DNA of 64,000 bases from Narthecium ossifragum (taxonomy: Eukaryota > Streptophyta > Magnoliopsida > Dioscoreales > Nartheciaceae): contig OY986967.1 of assembly GCA_963920575.1 (NCBI GenBank), positions 16,844,094 through 16,908,093 of the forward strand, given 5' to 3'. Below, piece after piece: positions 8,303 to 58,242 of the stretch. The notes beneath the pieces were generated by a model that had not been told where the DNA came from, did no database searches, and saw nothing but the letters and a program-made list of their open reading frames with translations. The position numbers were made by a program, and so were the translations under genes. Position 1 is the stretch's first letter. Each line of letters starts with the position of its first letter.

Positions 8303-8831
8303 GTTCGATATAAGTATATAGTAAGTCCTTAATAAACACAACGTGTTTTAAAGCCGTGATGGTAGTGATCCGCCAAAAAACTCTAAGGTTAAGCGTGCTT
8401 GCCTTAGAGCTGTCCCGGGATGGGTGACCTACTGGGAAATTTTTCCAGATTTCTGCGGTGAGTCAAAAGCGGACAATATTGTGTCGGGGCGCGGCGCCAC
8501 TGGGCGAATCCTGGTCGGACCGGGAGCCCGCGGGCCGGGGCCGGGGTCCAGTTGAGGGTCGGGGCGTTACACGCCTGATAAGAATTGAAAAGTGCACAAA
8601 ACACCCTTGTAATTTGGCTTTGTTGGTCTCCGAGCAATGCTTCACTGACTACTTTTATCCCATTTCAGGTATAACAGACCCTATTATGAGTTAGATCAAC
8701 TTTGGAGCTAAAAGAAGCATATTTTGGCAATTCTGGTATGTAGGATCCATCCTCCTCTATTAAGGAGATCGATCCTACTCGATCAGCACATGGAGAAAGA
8801 ACGAGCATAAAGGGATCGATCGGACTCAACA

Positions 8832-11785
8832 TGTGAGGACGCGTACCTCCAACCCAGTCCGACCGCGTCGGTCGAGGGTCTGGTTCGGTTGGTTTGGCTC
8901 GGTTGGTTACTGTTGTGAGAGAGATCGGGAGGGAGAGAAGAGAGGCGGCGATCCGCAATCTCAGAGAGAGGGGAAAGCCCGCGACGGCGATGGAGTTCCT
9001 CTCATCGGAGGCGGAGAGAGACGACGTCGGTGACGAGGGCGAGGACAGAGACCTTGGGTACGACAACTGCGGTTGGGCGACAGCAAGCCGTAGGCGACCC
9101 ATGACCGGAGGAGATCGTGACTGGCTGAGAGCTTGGAGCTTTGGGACGACGACGCGGCCAGAATAGGAGAAGATCTTGACGATACAGAGATAGGGGATCA
9201 ACCCTGCTCCTTGATTAGGATCCTAGGATGGGTTGATGCTCTCTTCTTCTCTGTTTCCCTTCTCGACTGTGATGGTGCTCTTCCTCTTCCCCTTGTGACC
9301 ATGTTATACAATGCAAATGTTTAGTTACTTGTTGCTGGATGAGTTGTATCGATGCTAAGCTATTGGTTTGCCGGATTCTGTTGAACTACTCCTTGCTACC
9401 ATGGATTTAGATACGATACTTCCTTCGTCCTTTCCTTGCTGCCATGGTTGATGCTAGATGTGGTGATTGTGTTTTGGATTTGTGACTTGGGTTTGGTTTC
9501 CCTTCTTGGATTTCTTGCCGTCAGCTATTGCTGGGCATTCATCGGATTTTTCCTTGCTTCTTTTGGGTTTGTCTCCCCTCTTGGATCTGCATGGATGTGG
9601 ATCTCTGTTTCTCCACTTGCTGCTATGGTTTGCTCGAGTGGTTTGCATTTCATTGGATTCCGATGTTGTAGCTCGGACCTAGCGATTGTTGTTGATGTTC
9701 TATTCCCACTCTTTAATGCAACGACATGCCCTGTTCTCTTCCTCTGTTCTGGGTGGATTGCTTTCTCTTCCCCCTGTTTTGCTCTTCATTTCCCTACTGC
9801 CATGGTTGCCTTCGTGAACCCTGTCCTTGGATTGACAGTTAGACCAGTTGATGGTCACGGTGTGCCATTTCTTGACTTTTCCTGAAGGCTCACCATCCTC
9901 TGTTCAGATTATCGATCGGCAGGGAAGTCGATGATCGGTAACTAGGCAGAGGGTGGAGTTGGGCTGTTTGGTGGAAGCTCTTAGCTACTGTTTTGACTTA
10001 GTAGCTGCGTTATTAGTTATGTTCAGTAGGAGTGCCGTGTCGTTTCTAGTCTTGCAGCCCAAAATTCATATCATGTAAACTGGAGGTTGCTTTACTTGCC
10101 GGCTGTGTTTCGTCGGTCTGATCATATAGTTTGAGAGTGGTTGGTTTGTTGTTTACTCTATTCCGATTGATCGCTGGATTCCTGATTTCCCTGTTAAGCT
10201 CATGTCTTCTAATTTATGTTCCTTTCTCTTCTTTACGGTAGTAGCCTGAATCTTTGGATGCTGATGGATTCATGATGATATTTCTTTTCTTTTGATTCTT
10301 AGTTCTTCTTCCTAACTCTCTAGCCTAATTGATCTTATGATTTTTCATGTAGTTGGTTGTTGAAATGCTAGGCTATCATTTAATCATGGCTATAGTTCCG
10401 GTGATCATGGTGTATGTAAGTCGACCATGTCAACTGCACATTATTGTAGCATGTTTCTTTCTCTGATCAATTCCTGTGAATTATCAACGTTAACTTCACA
10501 ATTCTTATGATCTCCTGTTAAATATCCATTCTGTACTCTTATATTATACTCTTGCTTTGGGCCAAAGGTGTGCCCCGTGTGTTGAATGATTATGCCTGGT
10601 TTGGATGCGTGAATGCCATGGGTGCCTCATGTTAGTTCTTTAATGCTAAATCTATTCTATAGTTATTTTATATTCTGTTGGACAATTGATTGATGGTTTG
10701 GTATGTAGAGGCACCTAGGCCTAGTTGCTTGAATAGGCTCATGCATGTTGTATGCATTAGAAGCATTAAGGCTAGGTGGTAGGTGATGGTTTCGATCGCC
10801 GATCCGGGGTTCTCGGATAGCCCGGATCTAGCCCTAGGACTGGGTTTTGGGTAGTCAAGGATTAGGACATGATTGTCATCAATGATTATATTTGATATCA
10901 TTTGAAGATTGTTAGGTAGTCGGGCTGATATATTATATTATTATTGAGGAATAGAGGTCGTATTGTCTGTTTGTCCCAAGGGCCTAAGTGTGAATGTCGA
11001 TGTCCATGATGTATGTCCCCGTACAAGGGGTGGTGTACGGTGAGAGCTCCGGCGGTGAGTACAGCGGCGATGCACCGACCCTGGGTCCGGGCTCGTGTTG
11101 GTCGTCCTCCTTGTTTCGCCGCTTGGGTGAGGGTGACCCTATTTAGGGGCCCATTCTGGATCGACAAGGTGTGATGCTTCCAGTGGCACCTTAGACTTGG
11201 GATGAAGGACAATACTGTTGTGGTTTCCCCTTCCTCGAGTGTGACGTAGAGTAGAACCTTACTGGGCATTGTTGCTCACCCTACCTGGGATGCGTCGGCG
11301 ATGCAGGTCGATGTAGTTTCTTCTTTCATGTGTTCCTTTAAAAGATGGCGCGGTATCTCGAGGTGATCGAGAACTTGGAGATTCGAGGAGTTCTTCTATA
11401 GATAATTTACAGACTTAATCAATGATGTATAAATTGATGTATAAATCGAGGTATAGCATGATGTATTCGAGGACATAAATGTATGATCATTAATTCAGTT
11501 GTATTCGAGAAATGTTGTAATATTCTTTAATGTAGACATTTGAGAAATGTAATAATTAGTTATATATGATTCGGCCATTGTATAAGTTGAAGTTATAAAA
11601 TTGTAAATTGTACAGATTTCTTATGCTATAATTATAAAGGGGATTCTGTCGAAATTTTTATGAACTTGAGGATTACACTGTTTAAATTCATAATAGTTAT
11701 ATACTTGTGCGCCAATTGATGATGTAAACAGGTTTAGGTGGCTCACGCCTCGATCTGGATGGGTTTTTTGGGTCGGGGCGTGACA
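8832..11785 (+). mobile_element. Family-D solo LTR nested in the 5' LTR of element A
   Basis: It starts TGTGAGGACGCG and ends GGGGCGTGACA. The exact 5-bp duplication CAACA is at 8827-8831 and 11786-11790, and the host LTR reads continuously across the site when compared with 21200-21300. Length is 2954 bp, with no internal domain, binding site or second LTR, so it is a solo LTR left by recombination. Short ORFs inside are not supported as genes. Confidence 0.92.
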
Positions 11786-11969
11786 CAACATGATGGATCG
11801 ATCCTCCACGGGACGTAGCATAACAACAATGAAAAGATCGATCGAACTCGATAGGAACGATCGATCTCGATAGGAACGATCGATCCTTCTCGGGGCGTCA
11901 CCAACAATTGAAGGAGTAGGATCGATCCTACTCCATAGAAGGATCGATCCTTTACGGCCAGAACGAAAG

Positions 11970-12022
11970 ATCAACGGCTCAGATCTAATCCGTGGGAGGA
12001 TGTTTTCCTAGGCTATAAATAG
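11970..12022 (+). promoter_or_regulatory. LTR promoter of element A: ACGG box plus TATA box
   Basis: ATCAACGGCTCAGATC (11970 onward) precedes CTATAAATAG (12013-12022). Both are preserved in the 3' LTR at 21433-21456 and 21476-21485. Immediately upstream lie several GATCGATC palindromes. The same layout recurs in LTRs of families B and D. Confidence 0.65.
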
Positions 12023-12628
12023 TCAGTTATTAGGGATTTTTTGGGGCTTTTTCCTGAACCTTTTTGGGGAGAGTTTCTGGTCCTTCTTCTAAACTTTTCT
12101 TCGACGATTCTTTGGAGGAGATCCATGGCGGGAGGAGATCATCGACTTCCACCTATGGATCGACCCCTAAAGATAAGTAGCTAAAACCCTAGCCATGGGA
12201 TTCTTATGATGTAACTAGGGTTTCTATTAGGGATTTCTGAGATCTAGGGCTTGTATACATTATTGATTGGCTTATATGGATTGATTTCTATTTCTTTTAT
12301 ACCTTGGTGTCGATTTCTTGCAGGATGTATGGATTGTTCTTGTTTGCACTTGATTCCGGAGCTTGTGTATGCTAGGGTTTGGTCTCTTCTCTTTTATTTA
12401 TAAACCCTTTAGTATAAATCTAGTTTAATATCAACCCGTAATCTTTTCTCAACTCATTGGTAGGAAATTTACTAAGCTTTCAGTCCCAATCACCTTAATC
12501 CCTGTGGACTCGAGTCGGACTCTCCGCTATCTACTAGTTCCTTAGTAGTTAAAGTAGAGCACCAGAAATTATAGTAATTTTGGTTAGACTCGTCAAGCCA
12601 CGACACTTTCCAAGTCGCATCAAAATTT

Positions 12629-12646
12629 TGGTGCCGTTGCCGGGGA
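12629..12646 (+). other. Primer binding site of element A (tRNA-Asp)
   Basis: TGGTGCCGTTGCCGGGGA starts six bases after the 5' LTR. It matches the complement of the 3' end of plant tRNA-Asp except for T in place of C at the fourth base; elements B and E have the exact C. Confidence 0.88.
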
Positions 12647-19427: not shown

Positions 19428-19963
19428 CCTTCTCTGATTTTACAGGGCATCTAAACTATCGAATGCACAGTAGGGTGACATCACGCCATCACTTGGTTTT
19501 ACCGACTAACCTTTATCTGCGAATCTATTTTCATTTGTATCAACCAGCTTATTTTTCGTACGAAGCCTCTACAGGTTATCTCTACCCTATATTCTTTGAT
19601 TTATTTTTCTGACTTAGTGTAATTGGGGACAATTACATTTAAATTGGGGGGTAGAATTCTAGGAATTCATGTTTATTTATTTATTTCACGATAACCTTCT
19701 CTGATTTTATAGGGCATCTAAACTATCGAATGCACAGTAGGGTGACATCACGCCATCACTTGGTTTTACCGACTAACCTTTATCTGCGAATCTGTTTTCA
19801 TTTGTATCAACCAGCTTATTTTTCGTACGAAGCCTCTACAGGTTATCTCTACCCTATATTCTTTGATTTATTTTTCTGACTTAGTGTAATTGGGGACAAT
19901 TACATTTAAATTGGGGGGTAGAATTCTAGGAATTCATGTTTATTTATTTATTTCACGATAACC
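19428..19963 (+). repeat. 267-bp tandem duplication in the 3' region of element A
   Basis: Two nearly identical copies start at 19428 and 19695. Each includes GTGTAATTGGGGACAATT and a purine tract AAATTGGGGGGTAGAATTC (about 19641-19659 and 19908-19926). The purine tract and its neighbourhood are conserved in element E (minus strand, 52190-52235), so it is a second polypurine-tract-like site. Confidence 0.88.
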
Positions 19964-20317
19964 AAATTTTATACATCCCTTATAACGTGTCAGACGAATG
20001 AAGTTATGATGATTATTGATAACAATGCAAGACTTCAAACATTATTCGATGATTTATTCAAAAGTTCATATGTCATGTAAAATTTAGTAAATTTAGCTAT
20101 GCATGGCATGAGTTCTGTACTTTAACACTTTTACCATGATTTAGGGATAACTTGACAAATCCTGTTGCACTTGAGCACTTTCACATGTGGATGAGTTGAA
20201 GTTAGATTCTGAGCCTGAGACTAGAATAGATTTACGATTCTAGGACATGTCACAGAAGATACATGAACACATGCAATTTTCTGTCAGCAAAATGTATGTG
20301 TATGAAAAGTGTAGGGG

Positions 20318-20461
20318 TTCAACTTAGTAACCGGGCAAGATGCCTAACCAGCATGTTGTTCACGTCAAGGGTTGGATTTCCTAACAAAGAAAAAAAAATC
20401 ACTACATACTTAGTAACCGGGCAATGTGCCTAACAAGGTCTATTGTTCGCGTAAAACGGTT
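20318..20461 (+). ncRNA. Tandem pair of structured RNA motifs in the 3' region of element A
   Basis: Two copies of TTAGTAACCGGGCA, then TGCCTAAC and CACGTCAA or CGCGTAAAA. Copy 1 (20318-20376) closes with TTCAAC/GTTGGA. Copy 2 (20415-20461) closes with AACCG/CGGTT. Each holds a hairpin GGCA-3 nt-TGCC (20334-20344; 20420-20430). Copy 2 adds AACAA/TTGTT (20432-20436, 20443-20447). Equivalent pairs occur in elements B and E. This is a candidate cis-acting RNA, not a known family. Confidence 0.6.
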
Positions 20462-20842
20462 GAATTTCCTTGTGAAAAGAAAAAACAATAAAGAAAAGAA
20501 ACGAACAGAGATTTTTATGTGATAAGTGGAAAATATGTGCTTGCTTAGAGTTGTGATCTGGACTAGTCAAATGCTTGGATATAATGGATATTCTGACACA
20601 TGTGGAACCAAATCTACATACTGGAGAGTCAAAGTTATTTTTGAATCATGATTAAATATGTTGAAGTGCTAGAAGTGTGCTATGACTTGTTCTTATTTAC
20701 TTTACTTTTATATGACCATGGATTGAAGAATAGACTCATGGATATTGTTTCTACTTAGTGCATTTGAATCAATGAATTTGATAATTAATTTTGAACGATA
20801 TGTTAAAGGGGATGTATAGATGTTTGTGGGTATCATCACTAG

Positions 20843-20918: not shown

Positions 20919-21002
20919 TCGTGAGACCTACGAAAGTAGCTAGTTAGATTTATTGCATTAATTTTAATTTTTGTTTGCTTTGCTCGAAAACTAGCAAAGA
21001 TC

Positions 21003-21016
21003 AAGTTGGGGGGGTG
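21003..21016 (+). other. Polypurine tract of element A
   Basis: AAGTTGGGGGGGTG directly abuts the 3' LTR start TGATAAG at 21017, as expected for the plus-strand primer. Confidence 0.85.
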
Positions 21017-22540
21017 TGATAAGACTTGAAAAGTGCACAAAACACCCTTGTAATTTGGCTTTGTTGGTCTCCGAGCAATGCTTCACTGACTATTTTTATC
21101 CCATTTCATGTATAACAGACCCTACTATGAGTTAGATCAACTTTGGAGCTAAAAGAAGCGTATTCTGGCAATTCTGGTATGTAGGATCGATCCTCCTCTA
21201 TTGAGGAGATCGATCCTACTCGATCAGCACATGGACAAAGAACGAGCATAAAGGGATCAATCGGACTCAACATGATGGATCGATCCTCCACGGGACGTAG
21301 CATAACAACAATGGAAAGATCGATCGGACTCAATAGGAACGATCGGTCCTTCTCGGGGCGTCACCAACAATTGAAGGAGTAGGATCGATCCTACTCCATA
21401 GAAGGATCGATCCTTTGAGGCCAGAAAGAAAGATCAACGGCTCAGATCTAATCCGTGGGAGGATGTTTTCCTAAGCTATAAATAGTCAGTTATTAGGGAT
21501 TTTTTGGGGCTTTTCCTGAACCTTTTTGGGGAGAGTTTCCGGTCCTTCTTCTAAACTTTTCTTCGACGATTCTTTGGAGGAGATCCGTGGGGGGAGGAGA
21601 TCATCGACTTCCACCTATGGATCGACCCCTAAAGATAAGTAGCTAAAACCCTAGCCATGGGATTCTTATGATGTAACTAGGGTTTCTATTAGGGATTTCT
21701 TAGATCTAGGGCTTGTATACATTATTGATTAGCTTATATGGATTGATTTCTATTTCTTTTATACCTTGGTGTCGATTTCTTGCAGGATGTATGGATTGTT
21801 CTTGTTTGCACTTGATTCCGGAGCTTGTGTATGCTAGGGCTTGGATTGGATTCATCCAAATAAGAGGACCATGCTAGTCCCATGGTATCTCGGATGAAAT
21901 CTTCTTCGTGATTAGGGATTGTATAGTGCTAGAACCGCTATAGTAGTGCTAGTCCCACTACGTTCTATCTCTAATCCTTCATACATCCTACCTTTGTAGT
22001 TTTGGCCATCAAGATGCTAAACCCATCTTGATCTTACACCTAAATCCATATCCGTACTCTTACTTGCGATGAATTCATCCTGATAAGAGGATTTATTAGC
22101 AGTGAACGTAACTAATCCTTCGGTCACTGATATTTATATAATTGTTCTTGCCAACATGGAATCCTAACCAGAACTTGTTAAGTGATAAGGAGAACTAGCC
22201 ATTCACTTATCAACTATTAGGAAAGCCATTCATTGTGGTCAACGTACCCTGATCTTAGGTAGACCTGGTAGAACCTTAGTTATTGATTAAGAATCCTATG
22301 GTCTCTTCTCTTTTATTTATAAACCCTTTAGTATAAATCTAGTTTAATATCAACCTGTAATCTTTTCTCAACTCATTGGTAGGAAATTTACTAAGCTTTC
22401 AGTCCCAATCACCTTAATCCCTGTGGACTCGACTCGGACTCTCCGCTATCTACTAGTTCCTTATAGTTAAAGGAGAGCACCGTAAATTATAGTAATTTTG
22501 GTTAGACTCGTTAAGCCACGACACTTCCCAAGTCACTTCA
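21017..22540 (+). repeat. 3' LTR of element A
   Basis: 1524 bp, TGATAAG to TCA, followed by the target duplication ACGCC. It is the intact form of the interrupted 5' LTR. It has the ACGG box (21433-21456) and TATA box (21476-21485) and a segment of about 440 bp missing from the 5' copy. Confidence 0.88.
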
Positions 22541-22545
22541 ACGCC

Positions 22546-23615: not shown

Positions 23616-25235
23616 TGATGTCGCTCAAATGTGTCACGCACAGCGGTCGCGGTGCAGTACAGCATAAGAGAGGTCGAATCTCACAGAGAGACAAGCAGGA
23701 AAGATCCAGAAAAACAGATAATAATATATTGAAGACAATCAAGAAAGCTAACTAAATTAAATTAGATCAAAGGATTAATGATAATGTAATGTTAACTAAA
23801 GATATCAGGCTTTTGATAAGGCTAGGCTTCAGAAATCACTTCACTCGGATTTAGGTTCTTCTCTTCTCAATGATTCATATAATACTCAGTTAATGGATTC
23901 ACATCCCAATCACCTTAACCGGAAGATATGGAATTATAAACCTAACAAAATATATAAATGTCTCTTCCTACGATTGGTTATTCCTTTTTATAGTTCTAAC
24001 CTCATCCAACCAAACCTAAGAATACACGATACCGGCTGTCACTACAGGCAACGCGCAGCAAAAGTTCATCGGGACAAAGCCCTAACTCTATTTAACTGGA
24101 TCTCTAAGAATACACAATACCAACTCTCACAATCGGCAATGCATAGCAAAGATTTCACGGGATAGAGCCCCAACCTTGTCTTACCAGATCCCTAAGAATA
24201 TACAATACCAGCTGTCACTACGGGCAATGCATAGCAAAGGTCTCGCAAGACTCGGTAGGAGAATCAAAAGAGAAGACTATGGGATTATAAGATCATGAAA
24301 GAAGCATGACTGGATTCATAATATTAATCATCCACATAGAAATCTATAATCTGAAAATAATATTTGAAGATCCAATACATAGAAAAGAGTTTAACAATGA
24401 AGAATAAAAACTATGAACCATTGTTGGAGAAGAAACCCTAATCCTCGCTAGGTCATCCGTCCACCATGCCCGCGGATTACTCGGCCATGGATGGAGATTC
24501 CTTCATCTTTTTCCTCTCGAAAAAGTCCAGAAAAGAGCCTCCAAAAACGTCCAAGAACTCCCCTTTGATTAGCCCTAAGTTTCCTATTTATAGCCCCAAA
24601 GTCTCTCCATCCACGGATTAGATCTAAACCGTTGATTTTCTTCACTGGGAAAGTCGGATCGATCGGACTTTAGGTGTTGGATCGATCCGTTGCGTAAAAA
24701 TCCGCTGTTTTTGGCTATTCCCGAGTCCGATCGATTGGACTATGGGTGTCGGATCGATCGGACCCCGTAGGAGGGATGGAGGGATCGATCGGACCCCGTA
24801 TGGCTGAAAAATATATGTTCTGTCACGTTTCTACGTAGTCGGATCGATCGGACCCTAGGTGTCGGATCGATCGGACTTCCAGCATATTTTCTGTTCTGCC
24901 ATTTAGAATGCGCCATCGGTACTAAAATTGCCGTAACTTTCTCTAGAAAACTCGGAATCATGAACCGTAAAATTCTCCAGAATTTAAAGTTCAAGAGCAT
25001 TCCAACCATATATGGCACATCATTTGGTTCTTCATGAGCAGGTACAGATTAATTTTTGAAGTTGATCCATATACTCTTTTCAGCTTCTTTTAGCTCCAAT
25101 TTCCTGCATTTTCCAAACAACTATGTGAAGTACATAAAAGTATAGAAATAGTGCTAAAGAAGTTGATTAAGGGTAAAGATATAGCAATTGAGATGGTTTT
25201 AAGGTTGTTCAGAGTGCACTTTCATGCACTCATCA
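23616..25235 (-). repeat. 3' LTR of element B
   Basis: 1620 bp. On the minus strand it starts TGATGAGTGCATGAAAGTGC and ends GAGCGACATCA. The promoter has GATCGATC palindromes, an ACGG box (24613-24636) and a TATA box CTATAAATAG (24584-24593 on the plus strand as ctatttatag). Confidence 0.92.
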
Positions 25236-25248
25236 CACCCCCCAACCA
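25236..25248 (-). other. Polypurine tract of element B
   Basis: TGGTTGGGGGGTG on the minus strand abuts the 3' LTR start. Confidence 0.85.
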
Positions 25249-25619
25249 GCTTATTGCTAGTCTCTAACAATTCAAAGCGCATAGAATATAATTAAGCACA
25301 CTAACGGTTTAAGGATGTAGACATGTATGATAAAAATTCTACCTTATCAAGTCAATAGTGTTTTATACAGTACAGAGCATGAAAACTTCTTATACTCATA
25401 CACATACTACCAACACATGAAATCAACTTCTACACATCAAACATGCTAATCACCATCCAGAAGAACACATGTGACGTGACAAATAAATATTACGTGCAGA
25501 AGCAACTTCTACCTACCATTAGTCCAAACACACTAATATCTTCATGACCAACATCCAACCCTCGCACTTTAAGTACAACATGCTCTTTCTTTCTCTTTTT
25601 CTTTTCAACTATCAGACAC

Positions 25620-25776
25620 TTTGCCTTTTTACGCGACGACTCTCCGCTTCTTGAGGCGCAGAGACCCGATTACTTAGCAAAACACTTAATAGTTTTTTTT
25701 TATAGCTATAAGTGGTTCTACCATTTTACGCGAGCCCCCTGCTTCCTGAGGCAAGAACACCCAGTTACTCAGTAGA
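25620..25776 (-). ncRNA. Tandem pair of structured RNA motifs in element B
   Basis: Copy 1 (25620-25681) has CTAAGTAATCGGG and CGCGTAAAA, closed by TTTGC (25620-25624) pairing with GCAAA (25677-25681). Copy 2 (25717-25776) has GAGTAACTGGG and CGCGTAAAA, closed by TCTAC (25717-25721) pairing with GTAGA (25772-25776). The closing stems differ in sequence from those in A and E but stay complementary. The interior differs, and copy 1 can form CTCT/AGAG. Confidence 0.55.
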
Positions 25777-26440
25777 TCACTTAATAGTTGTTTAGGCACA
25801 ACTTGAACAAGCTCCAGAACTTTTTCTCTTTTTTTTCTGCATGCAATACTCAACACTAGCTAATGTTGAAATCATGGTCTCGATTGACAATAGCATGCTC
25901 ATTCCTCTAGTGAGTATAATTACCACTGCACATAAAATGTTCGTGTGTGGATCACATGATGTTATACTTTCAGGTTATCACGCATGCAATCAATGTATTG
26001 GTCAATCCATATGAAAGCAACATGCATAATAAGCATAAAAATTTCAGCTCATGTACAATTTCTAGTAACATAATCAATTCAACACTATTAAACTCAATAA
26101 GGTAGCATGCATAAGGTCATGCATGCCTACACCCCCCAACCTGAAATTCACATTGTTCCCAATGTGTGCTAGTCATGTAAATAAGCAAAAGGGTGGTGGC
26201 TGAATTTTCATATATAGCATAAATAAGAATAGGAAATCAAAATAGGAGCGAGGCCACCTGGCAGAATATCTGAAATCTTGCACAGGGCTCTCCATTGTAG
26301 CCGAATTTCACAAGCAAGGAAGACGGAAGTTCAAGCATCCTAAAAACATAAAATAGCAAACAAAAGCAAATGAGAATGAAAGCAAACAAACTAAAACAAA
26401 CTAACCTAATCAAAAAGGGAAATGATAGATAGTAGAAAGA

Positions 26441-27762
26441 TCATCCCTCGTAGACAGGGTCTACGAGAGAAACGGTGTGCTCCTCAGGATCCGCTTTCTC
26501 TGGAATCTGTTTCAAGCGCTGTCCATTAACCGTAAACAGCCTCCTATCCTTCGGATCTTGAACCTCTACAGCCCCATTCTCAAATACTCTAGTAACCATA
26601 AAAGGGCCGGTCCATCGTGATCGCAACTTCCCAGGATGGAGGTGCAGTCGTGCATCATACAGGTAGACTTGCTGTCCTTCTTGAAATGTTTTCCTCAGGA
26701 TCCGCTTGTCGTGATAGGCCTTTGTTTTTGCCTTGAAGATCCGAGAACTCTCATAAGCATCATTCCTGAGTTCCTCCAGCTCAGACAGCTGGAGTTTCCG
26801 TTCCTGACTGTTTTTTCCAAGATTTGCTTTATCTCCCTATTGGCTAGTTCAGCTTGGTCATTCGTCTGTGGATGATAAGCAGTGGAAATCTTATGTGTGA
26901 CTCCATACCTGCGCATCAAAGCCTCAAAGGAGCGATTACAAAAGTGTGATCCCTGGTCACTAATAATAACTCTAGGAGTACCAAACCGGGATAAAATATG
27001 CTCTTTAAGAAACTTGATGACAGTGAAATGATCATTATTCCTACATGCAATAGCCTCCACCCACTTAGACACGTATTCCACAGCCAATAATATATATAAA
27101 TAGCCAAAAGAAGAAGGAAAGGGTCCCATAAAATCTATACCCCAACAATCAAAAATCTCTACAGTTTGAATGGGATTCAAAGGCATCATATGTCTTCTAG
27201 ATAAAGCTCCTAACGTTAGGCATCTATCACAGGATCTGCATAAAATGTTAACATCACGAAACATGGTAGGCCAGTAAAAACCACATTGAAGAATTTTCGC
27301 AGCAGTCTTTTTCATCGAAAAATGGCCTCCACATGCATGAGAGTAACAGAATGTAATGATGCTTTCGATTTCATAATCAGGGACACAACGGCGCATAATC
27401 TGGTCAGGACAATACTTAAACAGACAAGGATCATCCCAATAAAATTTCTTTACCTCAACAAAGAACCTACGCTTATCCTGCGCACTCCAAAAGGAAGGGA
27501 TCTCACCTGTCGCTAAGTAACTAACAATGTGTGCATACCATGACAGTCATGAAACTGAAAAGAGTTGCTCATCAGGGAAGTCATCCATAATTGGTGGCTC
27601 ATTTTCCTCTACTTCCACCATCAACCTTGATAGATGATCAGCGACAATGTTCTCCACGGGAAAGCGGGGACTGATCGAGCACCTAAGAATAAAAGCAAAA
27701 CAAACCAAAAACAAAAGCAAACATGCAAGCACACAACATAAAAACAACTCAAGCATTCTCAA
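26441..27762 (-). pseudogene. Element B pol remnant: RNase H end and integrase
   Basis: The RNase H end (VADHLSRL, then the acidic tail to a stop at 27547-27549) is followed in the same frame by the linker (WDDPCLFKYCPDQIMRRCVPD). Integrase follows (27396-26695), with the HHCC zinc finger (H20, H25, C56, C59 counted from the Met at 27396) and the catalytic triad D88, D147, E183, a DD35E spacing with all three residues present. A frameshift follows in 26695-26740. The C-terminal GPF/Y part (RSRWTGPFMV) is in a separate frame at 26441-26626. The catalytic core looks intact, but the stop and shift prevent a complete product. Integrase would insert the cDNA in the nucleus. Confidence 0.88.
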
Positions 27763-28442: not shown

Positions 28443-29492
28443 TTAGCGTGCCTTCTCCTCGTCCTTCATAAGTAGCTGCAGAATGAAAGATTCAAAATTA
28501 GGCTTGGTTTTAGCCTCCTTAAATAAGTCCAAAATTTCTGACATAGAAAATTGAGCAGAAACACGTGCATCTTCAGCATCAGAGGCATGAACATGTGCAT
28601 TACTAACATTGGAATCATGAGCATAGGCATAGTGAATGTTAGTATCATGAGCATGGGTATGAGCGCTAAAATCATCTGCATATGCATCACACACATTAGA
28701 ATCAATAGCTTGTGCATCAATAGGACTAGAATTTTGAACATGCACGCTAGCACTACAGTCATGAGCATATGCATCATCAACATGAACATCTTGAGCATGT
28801 GCACCATAAGCATTAAAATCATGGATGTAAGCATCACAAGCACTAAAGTCATCGACACATGCATCATAAGTGTTAGGCTCATCAACATGCACATCATGGG
28901 AAGTAGCAACATAAGTATCATGCACATAATCATCATAAGCACTAGGATAAGAGTAGAAAGGCTCATTGGGTTGCAGATAGCTGTTGGACGTTAAGGTGAC
29001 ATTGGGATGCTTGTAGGGTTTGGCATCAATATGAGCATGGTAATCATCCCAACGCTCCAGAATCGTCTGTGTAAGATTTGTCTCAACAAGCTCATTCAAG
29101 TGCTTCATAGCTTCATCAGGATCAATCTGCAAAAACTCACCCCTGCATCTTGTTTCAAGAATTTGACGTTCATGCTCAATTAATCCATAGTAAAAATAGC
29201 TAACTAAACACCAACTAGGATAACCATGTTGAGGGCATGAAGCTATTAAACTGTTAAATCGCTGCCATGCATCACATAATGTCTCGTCATCCTTCTGTGC
29301 AAAGGATGAAATCTTTGTTTTCAATGCGTTAATCATATAATTAGGAAGATACTCATTGACAGAAACATGACTCGTTCTATTCTCCTCTCTCAATTCGTAT
29401 ATGCTTTTCTTACGAACTGTTGTTTTAGACATTCCATCTCCCGACTTCATAGAACATGATCTCAAGTAGTCTTGATATAATTCATTTTCCAT
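28443..29492 (-). CDS. Gag-like protein of element B with Asp/His/Ala repeats
   Basis: 349 codons. Residues about 45-150 match the Retrotrans_gag capsid region (LCDAWQRFNSLIASCPQHGYPSW, then SYFYYGL and DEAMKHLNELVE). Residues about 165-310 are a run of degenerate units such as DAYAHD, DACVDD and NIHYAYAHD, rich in Asp, Ala, His and Tyr. The N-terminus lacks the usual first part of Athila Gag. Gag would form the cytoplasmic particle that packages element RNA. The open frame suggests it may still be translated or was so until recently. Confidence 0.75.
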   Translation of the reverse strand: MENELYQDYLRSCSMKSGDGMSKTTVRKKSIYELREENRTSHVSVNEYLPNYMINALKTKISSFAQKDDETLCDAWQRFNSLIASCPQHGYPSWCLVSYFYYGLIEHERQILETRCRGEFLQIDPDEAMKHLNELVETNLTQTILERWDDYHAHIDAKPYKHPNVTLTSNSYLQPNEPFYSYPSAYDDYVHDTYVATSHDVHVDEPNTYDACVDDFSACDAYIHDFNAYGAHAQDVHVDDAYAHDCSASVHVQNSSPIDAQAIDSNVCDAYADDFSAHTHAHDTNIHYAYAHDSNVSNAHVHASDAEDARVSAQFSMSEILDLFKEAKTKPNFESFILQLLMKDEEKAR

Positions 29493-29691: not shown

Positions 29692-29709
29692 TCCCCGGCA
29701 ACGGCGCCA
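29692..29709 (-). other. Primer binding site of element B (tRNA-Asp)
   Basis: TGGCGCCGTTGCCGGGGA on the minus strand, five bases after the 5' LTR. It is an exact complement of the 3' end of plant tRNA-Asp as I recall it. Confidence 0.9.
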
Positions 29710-29714
29710 ATTTT

Positions 29715-31334
29715 TGATGTCGCTCAAATGTGTCACGCACAGCGGCCGCGGTGCAGTACAGCATAAGAGAGGTCGAATCCCACAGAGAGACAAGCAGGAA
29801 AGATCCAGAAATACAGATAATAATATATTGAAGACAATCAAGAAAGCTAACTAAATTAAATTAGATCAAAGGATTAATGATAATGTAAGGTTAACTAAAG
29901 ATATCAGGCTTTTGATAAGGCTAGGCTTCAGAAATCACTTCACTCGGATTTAGGTTCTTCTCTTCTCAATGGTTCATATAATACTCAGTTAATGGATTCA
30001 CATCCCAATCACCTTAACCGGAAGATATGGAATTATAAACCTAACAAAATATATAAATGTCTCTTCCTACGATTGGTTATTCCTTTTTATAGTTCTAACC
30101 TCATCCAACCAAACCTAAGAATACACGATACCGGCTGTCACTACAGGCAACGCGCAGCAAAAGTTCATCGGGACAAAGCCCTAACTCTATCTAACCGGAT
30201 CTCTAAGAATACACAATACCAACTCTCACAATCGACAATGCATAGCAAAGATTTCACGGGATAGAGCCCCAACCTTGTCTTACCAGATCCCTAAGAATAT
30301 ACAATACCAGCTGTCACTACGGGCAATGCATAGCAAAGGTCTCGCAAGACTCGGTAGGAGAATCAAAAGAGAAGACTATGGGATTATAAGATCATGAAAG
30401 AAGCATGACTGGATTCATAATATTAATCATCCACATAGAAATCTATAATCTGAAAATAATATTTGAAGATCCAATACATAGAAAAGAGTTTAACAATGAA
30501 GAATAAAAACTATGAACCATTGTTGGAGAAGAAACCCTAATCCTCGCTAGGTCATCCGTCCGCCATGCCCGCGGATTACTCGGCCATGGATGGAGATTCC
30601 TTCATCTTTTTCCTCTCAAAAAAGTCCAGAAAAGAGCCTCCAAAAACGTCCAAGAACTCCCCTTTGATTAGCCCTAAGTTTCCTATTTATAGCCCCAAAG
30701 TCTCTCCATCCACGGATTAGATCTAAACCGTTGATTTTCTTCACTGGGAAAGTCGGATCGATCGGACTTTAGGTGTCGGATCGATCCGTTGCGTAAAAAT
30801 CCGCTGTTTTTGGCTATTCCCGAGTCCGATCGATCGGACTATGGGTGTCGGATCGATCGGACCCCGTAGGAGGGATGGAGGGATCGATCGGACCCCGTAT
30901 GGCTGAAAAATATATGTTCTGTCACGTTTCTACGTAGTCGGATCGATCGGACCCTAGGTGTCGGATCGATCGGACTTCCAGCGTATTTTCTGTTCTGCCA
31001 TTTAGACTGCGCCATCGGTACTAAAATTGCCGTAACTTTCTCTAGGAAACTCGGAATCATGAACCGTAAAATTCTCCAGAATCTAGAGTTCAAGAGCATT
31101 CCAACCATATATGGCACATCATCTGGTTCTTCATGAGCAGGTACAGATTAATTTTTGAAGTTGATCCATATACTCTTTTCAGCTTCTTTTAGCTCCAATT
31201 TCCTGCATTTTCCAAACAACTATGTGAAGTACATAAAAGTATAGAAATAGTGCTAAAGAAGTTGATTAAGGGTAAAGATATAGCAATTGAGATGGTTTTA
31301 AGGTTGTTCAGAGTGCACTTTCATGCACTCATCA
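29715..31334 (-). repeat. 5' LTR of element B
   Basis: 1620 bp, the partner of 23616-25235. TATA box 30683-30692 and ACGG box 30712-30735 (minus orientation). Most differences from the 3' LTR are C/T or G/A transitions. Confidence 0.92.
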
Positions 31335-41352: not shown

Positions 41353-42726
41353 TTAGGCAATGCAAACGACCGCCATGAACTCCTCGTTTTCCAACAGCGA
41401 ACTCATTGCCGCCGACGAGAGGCACAACTCCACCGCAATGCTCCCCTCCTCCGGTCCTGGGTACACCGTCGCCTTTCCGTCCATCTTGTTCCCCGACCCA
41501 CTTCGCACCGCCACGGGCCTCCCCCATCCGAAGTCATTCCCGTACACATCAAAGCTTGGCGAGCTGCTGGTCGTCAGGCGTCGCGCTAGGTCACGCCCGT
41601 AAATAAAGTATGGATTCTGCGGCCAAGATGCCAGCATCGCACGCACTTCCTCGTCCTTGTACTCCGCAACCGCCTGGTTGAGCTGCCATGCTGCCCAGCC
41701 GAGCCCACCTTCTCTCAGTTGCCCCGCCGTCGTCTTCGCTGCCGCTCCAAGCACTGCGTTACCGACGTAAGCTTTGGGCAGCGGCGGGTTCAACCTCGAC
41801 CTGTTCCCAACGAGCACCGTGTAGGTCGTCTCTTCCTCTGGATCGAAGCATCGGGCGCGCGTCACTGACTGCCAGATGTGGGCGAGAAGAGATTGGAGCG
41901 ATGATATGCGAGCGGTTCCCATCTCAGCGTTGGCTTTGCTTTTGAGCTTCCTAATGGAAGCCGCTGGGAAATTAAAGAAACACTCTCTAACTTGAGAAGG
42001 GTACCTGGGCCTTATGATGAAGTCCTTTGGATCGCTATAAGGTAGATGAATTGGGGGAGGACTCGAATCGAGAAACCACCTATTGAAAACCGGAGTTTGT
42101 CGAACTTGGTCCAGGCCGCAGCGCGATATCTCCGACCAAGAGTTCATGAAATACCAGAAGAAGGTGCCGTCGCCGACGACGTGGTTCAGGGAGCATCCGA
42201 CGAAGACGCCGTCAGACAATTCGGTGACTTGCACGCCGAGGAGGGGCAAGGAGTGCCCGTCGTGGCAGATGGCGCCGTCGAGAGGAAAGAACGACCGGAC
42301 CATGGGAGGGACGTCGTGACCGGCGACTATGTCAGAGACTTTGACGTTTGGGGCGGAGGCATGGATGAACTCGGCTCCCTCGTCGTTGCAGTCGAGAAAG
42401 ATGGATAGGGACAGCGGGGTGGTGTGGTGGTTGACGGTGGCGAGGCGGCCGGCTAAGGGGTAGAATTGGGTGAGGGATTTGGTGAAGGAGGATAGGAGAG
42501 TGGAAACGATGGAGCTGTGAGATCCATCACCTTGCTGTTGTTGGGATTGGTGTGGATTGTAGGAGAAGAGGAGGCCCTTTTGGATGTATTCTATTGAGAG
42601 CACCATGAGATCCCATGGAGTGAGATGGATTGTGGTGTGTCTTTCTCCTCCGGCTCCGGTTATCGGCGGAGGACGGACGGTTTGTTTAGAGAGGATAAGA
42701 ACATCGCTATTGGTGGCCATGGCCAT
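41353..42726 (-). CDS. BAHD-family acyltransferase
   Basis: An uninterrupted single-exon frame of 457 codons, the usual BAHD length. It transfers an acyl group from a CoA thioester to an alcohol or amine in the cytosol; the substrate cannot be told. The catalytic HXXXD motif is H182-V-V-G-D186 (NHVVGDG). The structural DFGWG motif is at 398-402 (NDFGWGRP). The N-terminal HTTIHLTPWDL and YIQKGLLF text is typical of the clade of uncharacterised acetyltransferases like Arabidopsis At3g50280 (related to EPS1). Met1 is chosen because ATGGCCATGG lies 58 nt downstream of a TATA-like sequence. No stop, shift or missing motif is seen. It is the only intact host gene in the window, isolated among retrotransposons. 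Confidence 0.93.
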   Translation of the reverse strand: MAMATNSDVLILSKQTVRPPPITGAGGERHTTIHLTPWDLMVLSIEYIQKGLLFSYNPHQSQQQQGDGSHSSIVSTLLSSFTKSLTQFYPLAGRLATVNHHTTPLSLSIFLDCNDEGAEFIHASAPNVKVSDIVAGHDVPPMVRSFFPLDGAICHDGHSLPLLGVQVTELSDGVFVGCSLNHVVGDGTFFWYFMNSWSEISRCGLDQVRQTPVFNRWFLDSSPPPIHLPYSDPKDFIIRPRYPSQVRECFFNFPAASIRKLKSKANAEMGTARISSLQSLLAHIWQSVTRARCFDPEEETTYTVLVGNRSRLNPPLPKAYVGNAVLGAAAKTTAGQLREGGLGWAAWQLNQAVAEYKDEEVRAMLASWPQNPYFIYGRDLARRLTTSSSPSFDVYGNDFGWGRPVAVRSGSGNKMDGKATVYPGPEEGSIAVELCLSSAAMSSLLENEEFMAVVCIA

Positions 42727-48371: not shown

Positions 48372-48640
48372 ACATGAAAAGAGAGTGGACGAGAGAGAGA
48401 GAGAGAGAGCGTAGTAGAGCGAGGGAGAGAGAGAGAGAGCGACGAGACCGGGGGAGAGAGCGAGTGCGGAGGAGAGCGAGGGAGAGAGTGTGCGGAGGAG
48501 AGAGGGAGAGCGACGCAACCGAGGGAGAGAGAGAGTGCGGAGGAGAGCGAGGGGGTGAGAGATTGCGTGGCGGAAAGCCAGGGAGAGAGAGACCGCGGAT
48601 GAGAGCGAGGGAGAGAGATGATTAAAGTCGATCGACACAA
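48372..48640. repeat. GA-rich minisatellite next to GRF copy 1
   Basis: Degenerate units such as gagtgcggaggagagcgaggg. It is a shorter relative of the array at 58243-59200, in the same place relative to the neighbouring GRF gene. Long open frames on both strands are artefacts of composition. Confidence 0.85.
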
Positions 48641-48827
48641 AGTAATCCCGGAGCCAAGTGACCTCTATGTCGAAGCACCCCATCAAGTCACTAATCCCGG
48701 AGCTACGGGAGCACCAGGTGGAAACAACTTATGAAGTCGCTAGGATTAGCATAATCATAATCATTCTTAGAAGTGGCCAAATTACGTGCATAATTCCCTT
48801 CTTGGGGAAAAAACGTACAACATTCAG

Positions 48828-49255
48828 TTATGACCTGCCAAAGCCATTGCGAAAATACAGTATAGACATAAATGCAAATGTCAATATTGCAGCAATCTGG
48901 TATGCCATGCGCTTGAGCTTCAATCGAAGGTTTTCTAGCTCCAGCCGGGCCACTATCATGTCTCTCTCATCCACCAAGCTTGGCCCAACGCTCGGTTCTG
49001 CTGTCGTCAGCTCACGAGCCACCCGATGGCAGATATCTTCTTCATTCCATCTGAAGAAGTTGCAACCACCATGCTCCTGTAGACGCCAACACAAGGGGTA
49101 GCTACGGCATTGTTAAACAGGGCAGCGAGAATGGACAAACATAATCTTACCCATGGTGTTGCACAGCGCAAGAACCTTTTGCCGCGGGTCTCCTCTGTAC
49201 GCCTGGTAAATAATCGGGCCTCCTTATGGCACCAACAGTAGCAAATCGTATCCAA
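48828..49255 (-). pseudogene. GRF-type zinc-finger protein gene, copy 1
   Basis: Exon 1 (49151 to about 49255) encodes CYCWCHKEARLF and GKRFLRCATPW. A 74-bp intron (49077-49150, GTAAG...CTACAG) is followed by exon 2 (48828-49076), GGCNFFRWNEED. The joined product has the zinc ligands and FF.W signature of a GRF zinc finger, then a Leu-rich coiled-coil-like segment (ARLELENLRLKLKRM) and a C-terminal hydrophobic helix (IAAILTFAFMSILYF). This layout is common in plant GRF proteins. No ATG is found in frame: a TGA lies upstream, while an ATG at 49383 is in another frame. The start is therefore damaged or in an unseen exon. A TATA-like TATTTAATA lies near 49410. Confidence 0.65.
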
Positions 49256-49657: not shown

Positions 49658-51097
49658 TGATCGCTCACAAACGTCGTCGTTAAAACGTTGTAAACTCAAT
49701 CAAATATTAAATTTATATCCTTATTCAATCACTAAACTACTAGGTAGAAATAGCGGTGAAGTTGGGAGTCGATCCACGGGGAAAACGTTGGAAACTAAAA
49801 TCAATTATCAAAACCCTAAAACTAAGGAAAAGAATCAAAGATAGAATAGAGTAAACTAATGAATAAAAAAGATAAAAGGTTGATTAATTTGAATCAATGG
49901 ATAAGTGACTTAGGAATTACTCAATCCGCCCTAGTTTCGCCTTCAATCTTCTCTAATTATCCTCTTGTTCTCTTCTGTCAACATTATGGATCATATGGCT
50001 ACAAGCTCACATGAATCCCTAAAATAAGATTTATGTTCCTAACGGCATAGCCTATCTTTCTTGGCATAGGTTGTCTTCGATCCTACGATTACTTTAAGTT
50101 ATACTACTCCTAATGACCTTGGCACAACCTATCCTATCTTAGCATAGCCTATCTCACCAGCAAACCATAAATCACATGAAAACCATCCTATGAATCTCTA
50201 CAATCAATCACAGAAATCATGTAGGACTGAAAATACGTCAAGGAACTCTGTTCCCTCAACTCTATTAATAATAAAAAGCAAATTCATAGGATCATGTCTT
50301 GAGAAGAATACAAGATTCAAACCAAAGAAGATAGAAAACTATGTTAGGGTTTCATGAATAATCCTAAGTACAATAACTAGCAACTCATCTTTTGGATGAA
50401 AGCCATCGGGTTGGAATAGGAAGCTGTCACCATCCACATCCTCTCCTTCTTCTTCTTCCTCCTCCAAAAATTGTCAAAAAGATGAGAAGTTTTGCTGGAA
50501 TAACCCCTTTTTATAATAAAAACTCTTAATCCTAGAATTAAGGTTATGGCTAAGTTGAGTTGGACCTCTAGTGCAACTCGGAATTCCTAGTTTAATTCTG
50601 ACTGCCTCTTCTGGTCGCGACTGGGTTCAACTCGTCTGGAATTTGGAAATGTGCTCAACAGGAAAGAGGTAGATTAGGAAGTATTCTGTCTTCCCCCGAA
50701 GATTTTATAATATTCTGATTTATGAGGAATATTTGGGGAATATTCTCCTGAGCATCGACAGACCAGTTTTCCAGCAGCTATGTATCTTGATATTCTTCAA
50801 AACTGGTATTAATCGGTATAGAATCTCGCCAAGTGTCCAACATGAACATTGTTCATCTCTGAGTCTGCTACAACATCTCAAAGTTTCAGAATATTTGGAC
50901 GTTTGTAAAATATTTTGCGAATATATTACGGACGGTCGACGAAGCAGTTTATTTAGTCATTTTAGCCGAATTTCTTGCACTTCTTCTCAAAGCATGATTA
51001 AACCGGAAATCAACTAACAAGCTATCAAATACAACTACTCTAGGCATAACAAAGCTATGTTAAGGGGTTGGATCATGATCATTTAGTGACTTATCAC
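49658..51097 (-). repeat. 3' LTR of element E
   Basis: Starts TGATAAGTCACTAAATG on the minus strand and ends GTGAGCGATCA. The TATA-like TTATAAAAAGG lies near 50510. It differs from the 5' LTR at scattered sites. Confidence 0.92.
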
Positions 51098-51110
51098 ACC
51101 CCCCAACTTA
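51098..51110 (-). other. Polypurine tract of element E
   Basis: AAGTTGGGGGGTG on the minus strand directly before the 3' LTR. Confidence 0.85.
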
Positions 51111-51188
51111 CACTTTGCTAGTCCTCGAGCAAAGAAAATATAAAAAGAAAACAATAAATCTAACTAGCAACTTTCGTAGGTCTCACGA

Positions 51189-51264: not shown

Positions 51265-51644
51265 TCAGGGATGACACCCACAAACATCTATATATTCCCT
51301 TGAATATATCATTTGAAATCAATCATAATACTCATCAACTCTAATGGATGAAATAGAAATAATATCCATAAATATACCCTTCAACTCATAGTCGCATAAA
51401 AACTTAGTAAATCAAAACATGTCATAACATATTTCCAACACTTCAACATATTTAAGCATGATTAAAAATAACTTTAACACTTCTGTGTGTGAATGGGGTT
51501 CCACATGCTTCAGAGCGTCAATTATATCTAAACATTTCAACTATTCAAGATCACAATCATATTCAAGCACATATTTTCCACTTATCACATAACAATCTCT
51601 GGTTTTTTTTTCATTTTTCTTTTGTTTTCTTTTTTCTGCTGGAA

Positions 51645-51800
51645 TTTCAACTATTTTACGCGAACACCACGCTGGTTAGGCACACTGCCCGGTTACTAAG
51701 TTGAAAATCCATTTTTTTTTTCTTCTTTTTTTTCAGGAAATTCAACCGTTTTACGCGAACACCACGCTGGCTAGGCACACTGCCCGGTTACTAAGTTGAA
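51645..51800 (-). ncRNA. Tandem pair of structured RNA motifs in element E
   Basis: Copy 1 (51645-51706): outer stem TTTCAACT/AGTTGAAA, hairpin GGCA-3-TGCC (51679-51689) and hairpin ACCA-3-TGGT (51666-51676). Copy 2 (51741-51800): outer stem TTCAAC/GTTGAA, or alternatively AACCG/CGGTT, with the same two hairpins except for one outer pair. Conserved sequence TAGTAACCGGGCA and GTTCGCGTAAAA in transcript sense. Confidence 0.6.
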
Positions 51801-52639
51801 AATCCTTTTTTTCCTTTTTTTTTCGCATACTCAGATAATTGCATGTGTTCATGTATTTTCTGTGTCATAACATAAAATTGTAAATCTATCCCAGTATCAT
51901 GCTTAGAATCTAATATCAACCCCTTAACATGTGGAAGTGAACATGTGCATTAGGATATGTCAAGCTATCCTTAGATCATGGTAAAAGTGTTAAAGTATAG
52001 AAATAGTGTCATGCATAGCAAAACTTTACTATTTCTTATATGACATACAAGTCTCAAAATAATTCATAAAATAAATTTATAAAACATGCAGCTTTGTCAA
52101 ATCATATCATAATTTCATTCTTTTGACATAATTCAAGGGATGTATAAATTTGGTTACCAGAAATAAAATATGAGCATGAAAATATTATGAATTCTACCCC
52201 CAACTTGAATGTTATTGTCCCCAATTACACTAAGTCATAAAAATAAATCAAGAAGTAAAGGGTAGAGATAACCATAATGAACGCCTCAGAAATAGATTTC
52301 TCTCTCTTCCAATTTTAGTTTAGGCATCACCATCATTGAATAAATACGTCCTTCCCCACCATAACCTGTCACAGAAATATATACCTTTCCAAAAAGATCA
52401 AATATAACAAATAAAAGTCCAAAAAGGTATTAGAATCATAGAAAATTTTGGCAGAGTCTCCTTTGTATTTTCATGATATATTAATCTGTACAAACATTCA
52501 CCACACAAAAATATAACATGTACAGATAAATAGTAAAGGAGACAATACATCAAAAATAATCTTCTAGACATCACAGATAAGGAAATAAAGGACCAAAATA
52601 TCCAAGCAGGGCAACCATCAGTTATCATCCGCATAAAAC

Positions 52640-55338: not shown

Positions 55339-55356
55339 TCCCCGGCAACGGCGCCA
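55339..55356 (-). other. Primer binding site of element E (tRNA-Asp)
   Basis: TGGCGCCGTTGCCGGGGA on the minus strand, five bases after the 5' LTR, identical to that of element B. Confidence 0.9.
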
Positions 55357-55361
55357 AAAAT

Positions 55362-56800
55362 TGATCGCTCACAAACGTCGTCGTTAAAACGTTGTAAACT
55401 CAATCAAATATTAAATTTATATCCTTATTCAATCACTAAACTACTAGGTAGAAATAGCGGTGAAGTCAGGAGTCGATCCACAGGGAAAACGTTGGAAACT
55501 AAAATCAATTATCAAAACCCTAAAACTAAGGAAAAGAATCAAAGATAGAATAGAGTAAACTAATGAATAAAAAAGATAAAAGGTTGATCAATTTGAATCA
55601 ATGGATAAGTGACTTAGGAATTACTCAATCCACCCTAGTTTCGCCTTCAATCTTCTCTAATTATCCTCTTGTTCTCTTCTCTCAACATTATGGATCATAT
55701 GGCTACAAGCTCACATGAATCCCTAAAATAAGATTTATGCTCCTAACGGCATAGCCTATCTTTCTTGGCATAGGTTGTCTTCGATCCTATGATTACTTTA
55801 AGTTATACTACTCCTAATGACCTTGGCACAACCTATCCTAGCTTAGCATAGCCTATCTCACTAGCAAACCATAAATCACATGAAAATCATCCTATGAATC
55901 TCTACAATCAATTACAGAAATCATCTAGGACTGAAAATACATCAAGGAACTCTGTTCCCTCAACTCTATTAACAATAAAAAGCAAATTCATAGGATCATG
56001 TCTTGCGAAAAATACAAGATTCAATCCAAAGAAGATAGAAAACTATGTTAGGGTTTCATGAATAATCCTAAGTACAATAACTAGCAACTCATCTTTTGGA
56101 TGAAAGCCATCGGGTTGGAATAGGAAGCTGTCACCATCCACATCCTCTCCTTCTTCTTCTTCCTCCTCCAAAGATTGTCAAAAAGATGAGAAGTTTTGCT
56201 GAAATAATCCCTTTTTATAATAAAAACTCTTAATCCCGGAATTAGGGTTATGGCTAAGTTGAGTTGGACCTCTAGTGTAACTCGGAATTCCTAGTTTAAT
56301 TCTGACTGCCTCTTCTGGTCGCGACTGGGTTCAAGTCGTCTGGAATTTGGAAATGTACTCAATAGGAAAGATGTAGATTAGGAAGTCTTCTGTCTTCCCC
56401 CGAAGATTTTATAATATTCTGACTTATGAGGAATATTTGGGGAATATTCTCCTGAGCATCGACAGACCAGTTTTCCAGCAGCTATGTATCTTGATATTCT
56501 TCAAAACTGGTATTAATCGGTATAGAATCTCGCCAAGTGTCCAACATGAACATTGTTCATCTCTGAGTCTGCTACAACATTTCAAAGTTTCAGAATATTT
56601 GAACATTTGTAAAATATTTGGCGAATATATTACGGACGGTCGATGAAGCAGTTTATTTAGTCATTTTAGCCGAATTTCTTGTACTTCTTATCAAAGCATG
56701 ATTAAACCTGAAATCAACTAACAAGCTATCAAATACAACTACTTTAGGCATAACAAAGCTAAGTTAAGGGGTTGGATCATGATCATTTAGTGACTTATCA
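55362..56800 (-). repeat. 5' LTR of element E
   Basis: 1439 bp, colinear with 49658-51097, with few differences. Ends GTGAGCGATCA next to the binding site. Confidence 0.92.
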
Positions 56801-57490: not shown

Positions 57491-58242
57491 AGTATTTAAG
57501 TAATCTGAAATTTTCCCATGACATTGCTTTCGGCCTCTTTCCCACCTACTTAATGTACTACCCATCTCTACGTTTTCTCTGACACACTCTCTCTCTGTTG
57601 TGCATTTAATGCTTCATCATTCCTGTCTTGTCTTTGCTGTCATATTGTCACCTCTCAACATTTTTCTCTCTCTCCACCTTTCTCACTATCTCTCTCTCTC
57701 TTTCTCCCCCACACAACTTTCAGCACATGTATCTATCACAAATACCTCTTCCCTATCGATCGTCCTTCCCTAATTATGAAAAGAGGAACAACTTCCTTCA
57801 AAAATTAATAATGCACGACAGATTCGAACTATCAAAGTAGGCGTAAATAGTAAAGAAAATCGTAACAATAACGGAGTAGCTCTAAGAAATTGGGTATTCA
57901 ATACAGACTGAGGTAGTGAGAGAGAGAGAGAGGAAGACAACATATTTTAGTAGTATTCCTCAACACTAATTCAATGCATTCCCTTATAGTTTCCGAGTAT
58001 TATTCCTCGGCATGCATAAGTAATTGCCTACTCCCCCGCTCTCTTCTCTTCCACCCTCGCTCTCCCTTCCCTCTCTCTCCTCCACTCCCTCCGCAGCCAC
58101 TCTCTTTCTCCCTCGCCACTGGCTCTATGCCACGCCACGGAGGAGCGGAGGAGAGAGAGGAGAGAGACACAACGTAAGGACATGTACGAACTCTGCTACT
58201 TTGATATCAACCCATGTGGGCCATTGACCCAAAATGGCGAAG

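Follow-up and report, generated by a model that had tools for sequence, protein, structure and literature searches.

Each of three LTR elements in the analysed window, a 64-kb (64,000-nucleotide) stretch of the Narthecium ossifragum genome, carries two copies of a ~75-nt motif in its 3′ noncoding region, in transcript sense, and this motif is very probably a structured and functional RNA. The stems that close the hairpins have changed in sequence together, so that the hairpin pair is in all likelihood a working RNA signal. The best explanation overall, which we advance tentatively, is that a group of Ty3/gypsy LTR retrotransposons uses the motif as a cis-acting RNA element, whose two sites would recruit a protein.

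The host element on the + strand, A, has LTRs at 8576-12623 and 21015-22541, each of which is interrupted, the 3′ LTR near 21845-22298. Elements B and E lie on the - strand; the 3′ LTR of B (23616-25237) is 98.9% identical to its 5′ LTR (29715-31334), and that of E (49658-51098) is 97.2% identical to the 5′ LTR at 55362-56800. The primer binding sites (PBS), read from the sequence at 12629-12646 (A, +), 29692-29709 (B, -) and 55339-55356 (E, -), have the form TGG(C/T)GCCGTTGCCGGGGA. A PBS of the tRNA-Asp type is a trait of Athila/Tat elements; we take the PBS of element A to be of this type, and the name Athila for A, B and E is our assumption from PBS type and layout. The polypurine tracts (PPT), also read from the sequence, adjoin the 3′ LTRs at 21003-21014 (A, +), 25238-25245 (B, -) and 51099-51108 (E, -), and end with a run of G followed by TGTGAT. 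Directly before the PPT, A (20978-20999, +) and E (51113-51134, -) have a further hairpin, in which CTTTGCT and AGCAAAG enclose 8 nt; none of that form was seen in B.

Element B is classed as a Ty3/gypsy LTR retrotransposon by its LTR pair, PBS, PPT, gag and integrase, the last two being recognized by domain matches on the - strand (Retrotrans_gag, 28443-29492; rve and Integrase_H2C2, 26695-27396). The plant snoRNA snoR71 has an Rfam match within the same element, on the opposite strand and overlapping the gag ORF (29221-29327, +; 53 bits against a cut-off of 40), and no such match was present in five loci of family B, whose 3′ parts probably stop short of gag. In element E, tblastn with two queries, the B integrase and the A pol end, found no match, and neither of its two ORFs of at least 150 aa had a Pfam match. 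The motif is nonetheless present in E, in agreement with the proposal of the sequence-only reading that it is retained in elements without pol. The ATHILA ORF-1 domain (PF03078) was not matched in the nine ORFs scanned; according to the text cited, it is present in just 16% of Athila elements (PMC6317226). As for the surroundings, GA-rich direct repeats at 48390-49202 and 58237-59764, 82% alike over ~830 bp, flank element E; they may belong to the LTRs of a larger element that hosts the E insertion. In element A, a 267-bp tandem duplication with 99% identity (19428-19963, +) lies ~0.35 kb upstream of the motif, and E matches a part of it once.

The motif copies are located at 20310-20385 (A1) and 20396-20473 (A2) on the + strand, and at 25707-25785 (B1), 25610-25690 (B2), 51732-51808 (E1) and 51637-51713 (E2) on the - strand, ~0.4-0.7 kb before the 3′ LTR, with an A/G-rich linker (51714-51731, -) between E1 and E2. 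The two copies per element in 3′ noncoding sequence, their places and their strands are all as first reported from the letters of the window, and no ORF of at least 150 aa spans the motif. A covariance model run over the whole window with filters off returned only these six copies at E<=5, with 70-84 bits, the scores being those of the same six sequences from which the model was made. Taken by itself, the 5′ core is unremarkable in the window when up to 2 mismatches are allowed (45 observed vs 51 expected), and at 0 mismatches the six copies are its sole matches. BLAST links the motif of B to that of A/E at E 0.2-0.95 only, and in the remaining 3′ sequence of B and A/E it gave no match at corresponding places better than the PPT/LTR junction.

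The fold of one copy is better described, according to structure prediction, as a single imperfect hairpin, or rod. From the outside in, the predicted rod consists of the closing stem (P1), an internal loop that stays fixed as NAGUA/AAAAN, the stems P2 and P3, and an apical loop that keeps CCU. In P2, which begins with AC-CGGG opposite UUCG-C-GU, a single C is bulged and G·U pairs are kept. P1 reads UUCAACU/AGUUGAA in E2, UCUACU/GGUAGA in B1 and UUUUGCU/GGCAAAG in B2, and outer pairs lengthen it in A1, B1, B2, E1 and E2. RNAalifold gave one common structure for the six copies, of 22 pairs, 7 of which differ on both sides in one copy or more, and the loop sequence is the same in both copies of each window element, except for two loop letters in A1. 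When copies are folded in isolation, the rod is the best fold of A1, B1, E1 and E2 only. A2 alone forms the inner part and no P1; its P1 arm duplex has -3.6 kcal/mol, which 2422 of 5000 shuffles equalled, and its 5′ arm looks decayed. B2 alone favours another outer pairing by 0.8 kcal/mol. Single-copy energies are mildly below those of shuffled sequences (z -0.9 to -3.6). Folded jointly, the two copies of E are predicted to form separate hairpins, each a rod, and those of A a rod plus an inner stem. For B, the joint fold of lowest energy is neither two rods nor one continuous two-loop stem; the copies cross-pair, because the 5′ arms of the B copies are alike. A few copies elsewhere in the genome (L009-L012) have short duplications inside the hairpin that lengthen it. 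A search by eye for pairing of the loops with the 5′ leader yielded nothing convincing.

The stems and inner hairpins proposed from the window alone were partly borne out. The closing stems listed for A1, B1, B2, E1 and E2 are present, and AACCG/CGGTT for A2 is not needed, since second copies related to A2 have UUCAUAC/GUUGAA with a bulged U. Two small inner hairpins had also been described, and both are possible as pairs. The GGCA/TGCC hairpin has 4/4 pairs in five copies and 3/4 in B2; this first inner hairpin is possible, with pairs in 95.8% of cells and no pair changed on both sides. The second, ACCA/TGGT, has 4/4 pairs in E1 and E2, 3/4 in A1 and 2/4 in A2, and fails in B1 and B2 (0/4). 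The fold with two small hairpins has -9.1 (E1) and -9.6 (E2) kcal/mol versus -23.0 and -24.7 kcal/mol for the rod, a gain of 14-15 kcal/mol, and was set aside on these energies together with the missing second hairpin in B.

Covariation was measured against shuffled alignments by five quantities, namely paired cells, pairs in which both sides have changed, cells in which both have, a covariation score and further pair types. For the rod in the six copies, 3, 37, 6, 6 and 160 of 500 shuffles, in that order, were as good, compared with 29, 173, 81, 37 and 320 of 500 for the structure of the sequence-only reading. The signal from the six copies alone is modest. In a set of 94 distinct copies, no shuffle matched the rod on three of the five measures; on the other two it was reached by 57/500 (pairs changed on both sides) and 112/500 (further pair types).

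As the copies are related, a tree was used as well, along which every column was simulated with as many changes as it shows. The larger set came from 175 matches in short loci, of which the best 150 were aligned, yielding 142 distinct copies with identical ones counted once. In this model-fitted alignment, the covariation of P1 was reached by 0/300 simulations and that of P2/P3 by 6/300, with a tree built from the same short sequences. In a structure-blind alignment, in which the arms were anchored by the core (121 distinct anchored copies out of the best 150 of the 175), P1 covariation was 1.02 against a null of 0.22 +- 0.17 (0/200), and register shifts of -1, +1, +2 and +3 fell within noise (54, 148, 138 and 147 of 200 simulations). 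Compensatory change in the closing stem, from which a structured RNA had been proposed, thus extends to the larger alignment for P1 as a whole helix, where it exceeds the tree-based simulations, and not for single pairs: a phylogeny-aware test made pair by pair found none significant, the best pair, which tops all column pairs, having E 0.33. At the level of the helix, P1 covariation is as much an observation as the motif's sequence, place, copy number and strand. The copies fall into about five stem types, and the independent events are consequently few; among the types are UUCAAC/GUUGAA, its variant UUCA(U)AC/GUUGAA in which a U is bulged, UCUAC/GUAGA and UUUUGC/GCAAAA, besides less frequent ones such as UCAUC/GGUGA. 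In P2, one pair stays G·U in 139/142 copies, which favours RNA over DNA as the molecule that folds. Double mutants at one P2 pair number 17 where 9.7 were expected, a difference that carries no weight for or against pairing.

Exchange of arms gives a similar picture. Five of the six window copies have -10.5 to -14.1 kcal/mol with their own arms, and arms swapped between A/E and B have -1.4 to -4.9 kcal/mol, with the exception of A1 with the 3′ arm of B1 (-13.7). In a larger set of 109 distinct arm pairs, from 133 anchored copies of the best 150, A/E is clearly set apart from B. Within families, exchange makes little difference, as 5′ arms of B2 have -11.2 kcal/mol with 3′ arms of B1 and -10.8 with their own, and first-copy 5′ arms of A/E have -12.0 with second-copy 3′ arms and -12.5 with their own; the signal thus lies mainly between A/E and B.

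The motif is abundant in the one plant genome searched, that of the host (379.4 Mb, 150 contigs), where the pattern AGTAACCGGGN{15,40}CGCGTAAAA has 3,294 exact matches (1649 + 1645) and its reversal has 0; in 6 cores the anchors are 30-50 nt apart. The exact core was found in 0 stretches of viral contigs, which also had no match to the integrase of B, and a stricter core pattern gave 0 in prokaryote genome contigs. When loci were chosen blind to the motif, by the integrase of B, exactly two copies were found by covariance-model match in 27 of 28, and the inspected part of the one without copies (L138) is unlike the element. These 28 loci stand high in a list of 150 scored integrase matches, have the window's own B among them and form one close family, 89-100% identical in integrase, so that shared descent explains much of the two-copy regularity. 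Among 79 short loci selected by the motif, which contain an exact or one-change core by design, two copies occur in 66, three in 5 and one in 8, and with lengths of ~500-650 bp a second copy can be missed; L101, which covers the place of L009, was left unscanned.

Neighbouring copies are spaced by a median of 95 nt (82-168, n=67). The linkers in the sample are 64% A and, in the 40 of 67 listed, differ greatly in length and sequence between elements, whereas the hairpins are kept. The second hairpin lies ~430-600 nt upstream of the PPT. An exact PPT/LTR junction was found downstream in 25 of 41 three-kb loci and was not seen in 16; L001 and L061 are the same element and were both counted, so that these are 24 of 40 elements, and L002, L005 and L007 were omitted as overlaps. 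The distance to the junction is 425-440 nt in nine B-type loci, 550-604 nt in 15 A/E-type loci and 683 nt in one locus; the script class of L062, A/E, was changed to B by reading its core. As a protein query, the pol end of A has a few matches 3-9 kb upstream of motif matches, as at C1:6628414 with 6632909. Selection would be blurred if, as is probable, most copies in the genome are old and in decay. When 18 sources were chosen for a tree, the six B-type copies clustered with a support of 0.996, and this grouping indicates that pairs were duplicated or homogenised within families. Two loci (L046 and L051) combine a first copy of A/E type with a second copy of B2 type, a mixture that suggests recombination between families.

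Cis-acting RNAs are already known from LTR elements, including the CTE, the RTE and ENE-type elements. Over the three motif stretches, Rfam 15 has no family above the gathering cut-off and, at E<=5, only unrelated sub-threshold matches, and none of its models of self-cleaving ribozymes matches. Full-text searches of open-licence papers gave no description of the motif among the matches listed, and the listed matches of a core-string search in such papers had just CGCGTAAAA and looked unrelated by title. Within open-licence papers and Rfam 15, this fold, paired and in this plant element group, therefore appears to be new.

Several known systems resemble the motif in part, all compared by description. 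The CTE of MPMV, which acts on intron-containing full-length RNA, is likewise a hairpin RNA of the 3′ UTR with two like internal loops, but it is described as one long stem whose two 16-nt loops recruit NXF1 (PMC4377836, PMC7551171), whereas the motif is predicted to form two separate hairpins with one small loop each, in a plant host. Two like loops in 3′ UTR RNA are found in the window elements and in 27/28 loci, and the joint folds of E and B do not place both loops in one continuous stem. The direct repeats that flank src in RSV are, as the motif is, paired repeats of an LTR element, and together with the RTE of IAP and the MTE of musD they are reported as cis elements that export unspliced RNA (PMC7551171, PMC12786077); the MTE has a complex fold with a pseudoknot and a kissing loop (PMC12786077). 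The nearest mechanistic model is the export of unspliced RNA, by two like 3′ UTR loops as in the MPMV CTE or by paired repeats as in RSV. Among plant elements, the ENE of Arabidopsis Evade is also structured and located between ORF and 3′ LTR, but it grips the poly(A) tail by U-rich internal loops (PMC12501189), whereas the motif has the loop NAGUA/AAAAN in two copies; U-rich internal loops flanked by G-C pairs are absent from the motif folds. The 3′ UTR arrays of Retand and other plant Ty3/gypsy elements share tandem repetition between pol and 3′ LTR, but are described as family-specific and were counted from three copies in the survey (PMC11963269), whereas the motif mostly has two copies, is common to families and has covarying stems. 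Sireviruses, also plant LTR elements, have near their 3′ end an inverted repeat that is likewise a conserved noncoding stem-loop, but they belong to Ty1/copia and the stem-loop includes the PPT (PMC2829016), whereas the motif is paired and 430-600 nt upstream of it. Diaspora, which has been placed with Athila/Calypso relatives, is reported to have just 128 bp from the pol stop to the PPT (PMC1142308), implying that the motif is not needed by every such element.

The motif is somewhat more likely than not a protein-binding element with two sites, and we infer that a protein binds the two loops together. The full-length transcript would present two rods ~95 nt apart, with A-rich linkers between and beside them, in which the closing stem is free to change in sequence while pairing and the internal loop NAGUA/AAAAN stays fixed. 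A host RNA-binding protein, or the element's own Gag, might then bind both loops together and act on the full-length transcript, with export of unspliced RNA in the leading role and packaging next. Such a cis-acting protein site fits the two like sites, the fixed loop and variable stem, the A-rich linkers, the set distance from the 3′ end, the sense strand and the presence in E, where no integrase was found. As a role, packaging suits nearly as well as export. Export as the main role, suggested by analogy, is possible though doubtful. To our knowledge, NXF1, the receptor of the CTE, is not known in plants. It is conceivable, though unlikely, that the motif is the first case in a plant LTR retrotransposon of a cis-acting element for RNA export, which would use a plant receptor instead of the NXF1 route of animals. 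A compact paired RNA whose core matches one genome thousands of times would be a defined target for work on export, stability and packaging, and, if it binds a host protein, could be used as bait for that protein.

Packaging or dimerisation, in which Gag would bind both hairpins in the cytoplasm and pick full-length RNA for particles, is an unlikely alternative, in favour of which are the paired like sites on the sense transcript. The motif's presence in E also speaks for it; as the two pol-region queries match nothing there, E would on this reading depend on a relative for packaging in trans. Against packaging, no palindromic apical loop fit for kissing was seen by eye. Retroviral packaging signals, moreover, usually lie near the 5′ end.

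In a role in stability or translation, factors that bind poly(A) or block decay would attach to the hairpin pair and the A-rich linkers, which would work like the ENE though by another fold, and the 3′ UTR structure of Evade is reported to raise RNA stability and mobility (PMC12501189). The A content of the linkers suits this role, but the internal loop is A-rich on one strand and has NAGUA on the other, instead of being U-rich as an ENE needs, which makes a triple helix of the ENE type less likely; the Rfam matches, all unrelated and sub-threshold, speak against it as well, and we consider the role quite improbable. Lower still is the probability that the A/G-rich tracts between the copies are extra polypurine tracts and that the hairpins help to prime or halt plus-strand synthesis in reverse transcription. 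Extra PPTs have been reported in Athila4 and Calypso linkers (PMC2829016), but here it is the linkers that vary highly (in the 40 of 67 listed) and the hairpins that are kept, and the RNA:DNA hybrid cut by RNase H contains no hairpin. An ordinary tandem repeat of a hypervariable 3′ UTR, functionless and with incidental inverted arms, would agree with the frequent arrays between pol and 3′ LTR in Retand elements (PMC11963269), with the clustering of B1 and B2 as from local duplication and with two copies shared among close relatives by descent, but is most improbable given that P1 covaries in a single register, that the B and the A/E families alike have two copies, and that the core is common to families whose other 3′ sequence matches no better than the PPT/LTR junction.

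Preferred over these is the two-site protein-binding element set out above, for a motif confined in the window to the three LTR elements. Between transposons of the same window, an open ORF of 457 aa (41353-42726, -) matches the plant Transferase family (PF02458) and is presumably of the BAHD type.
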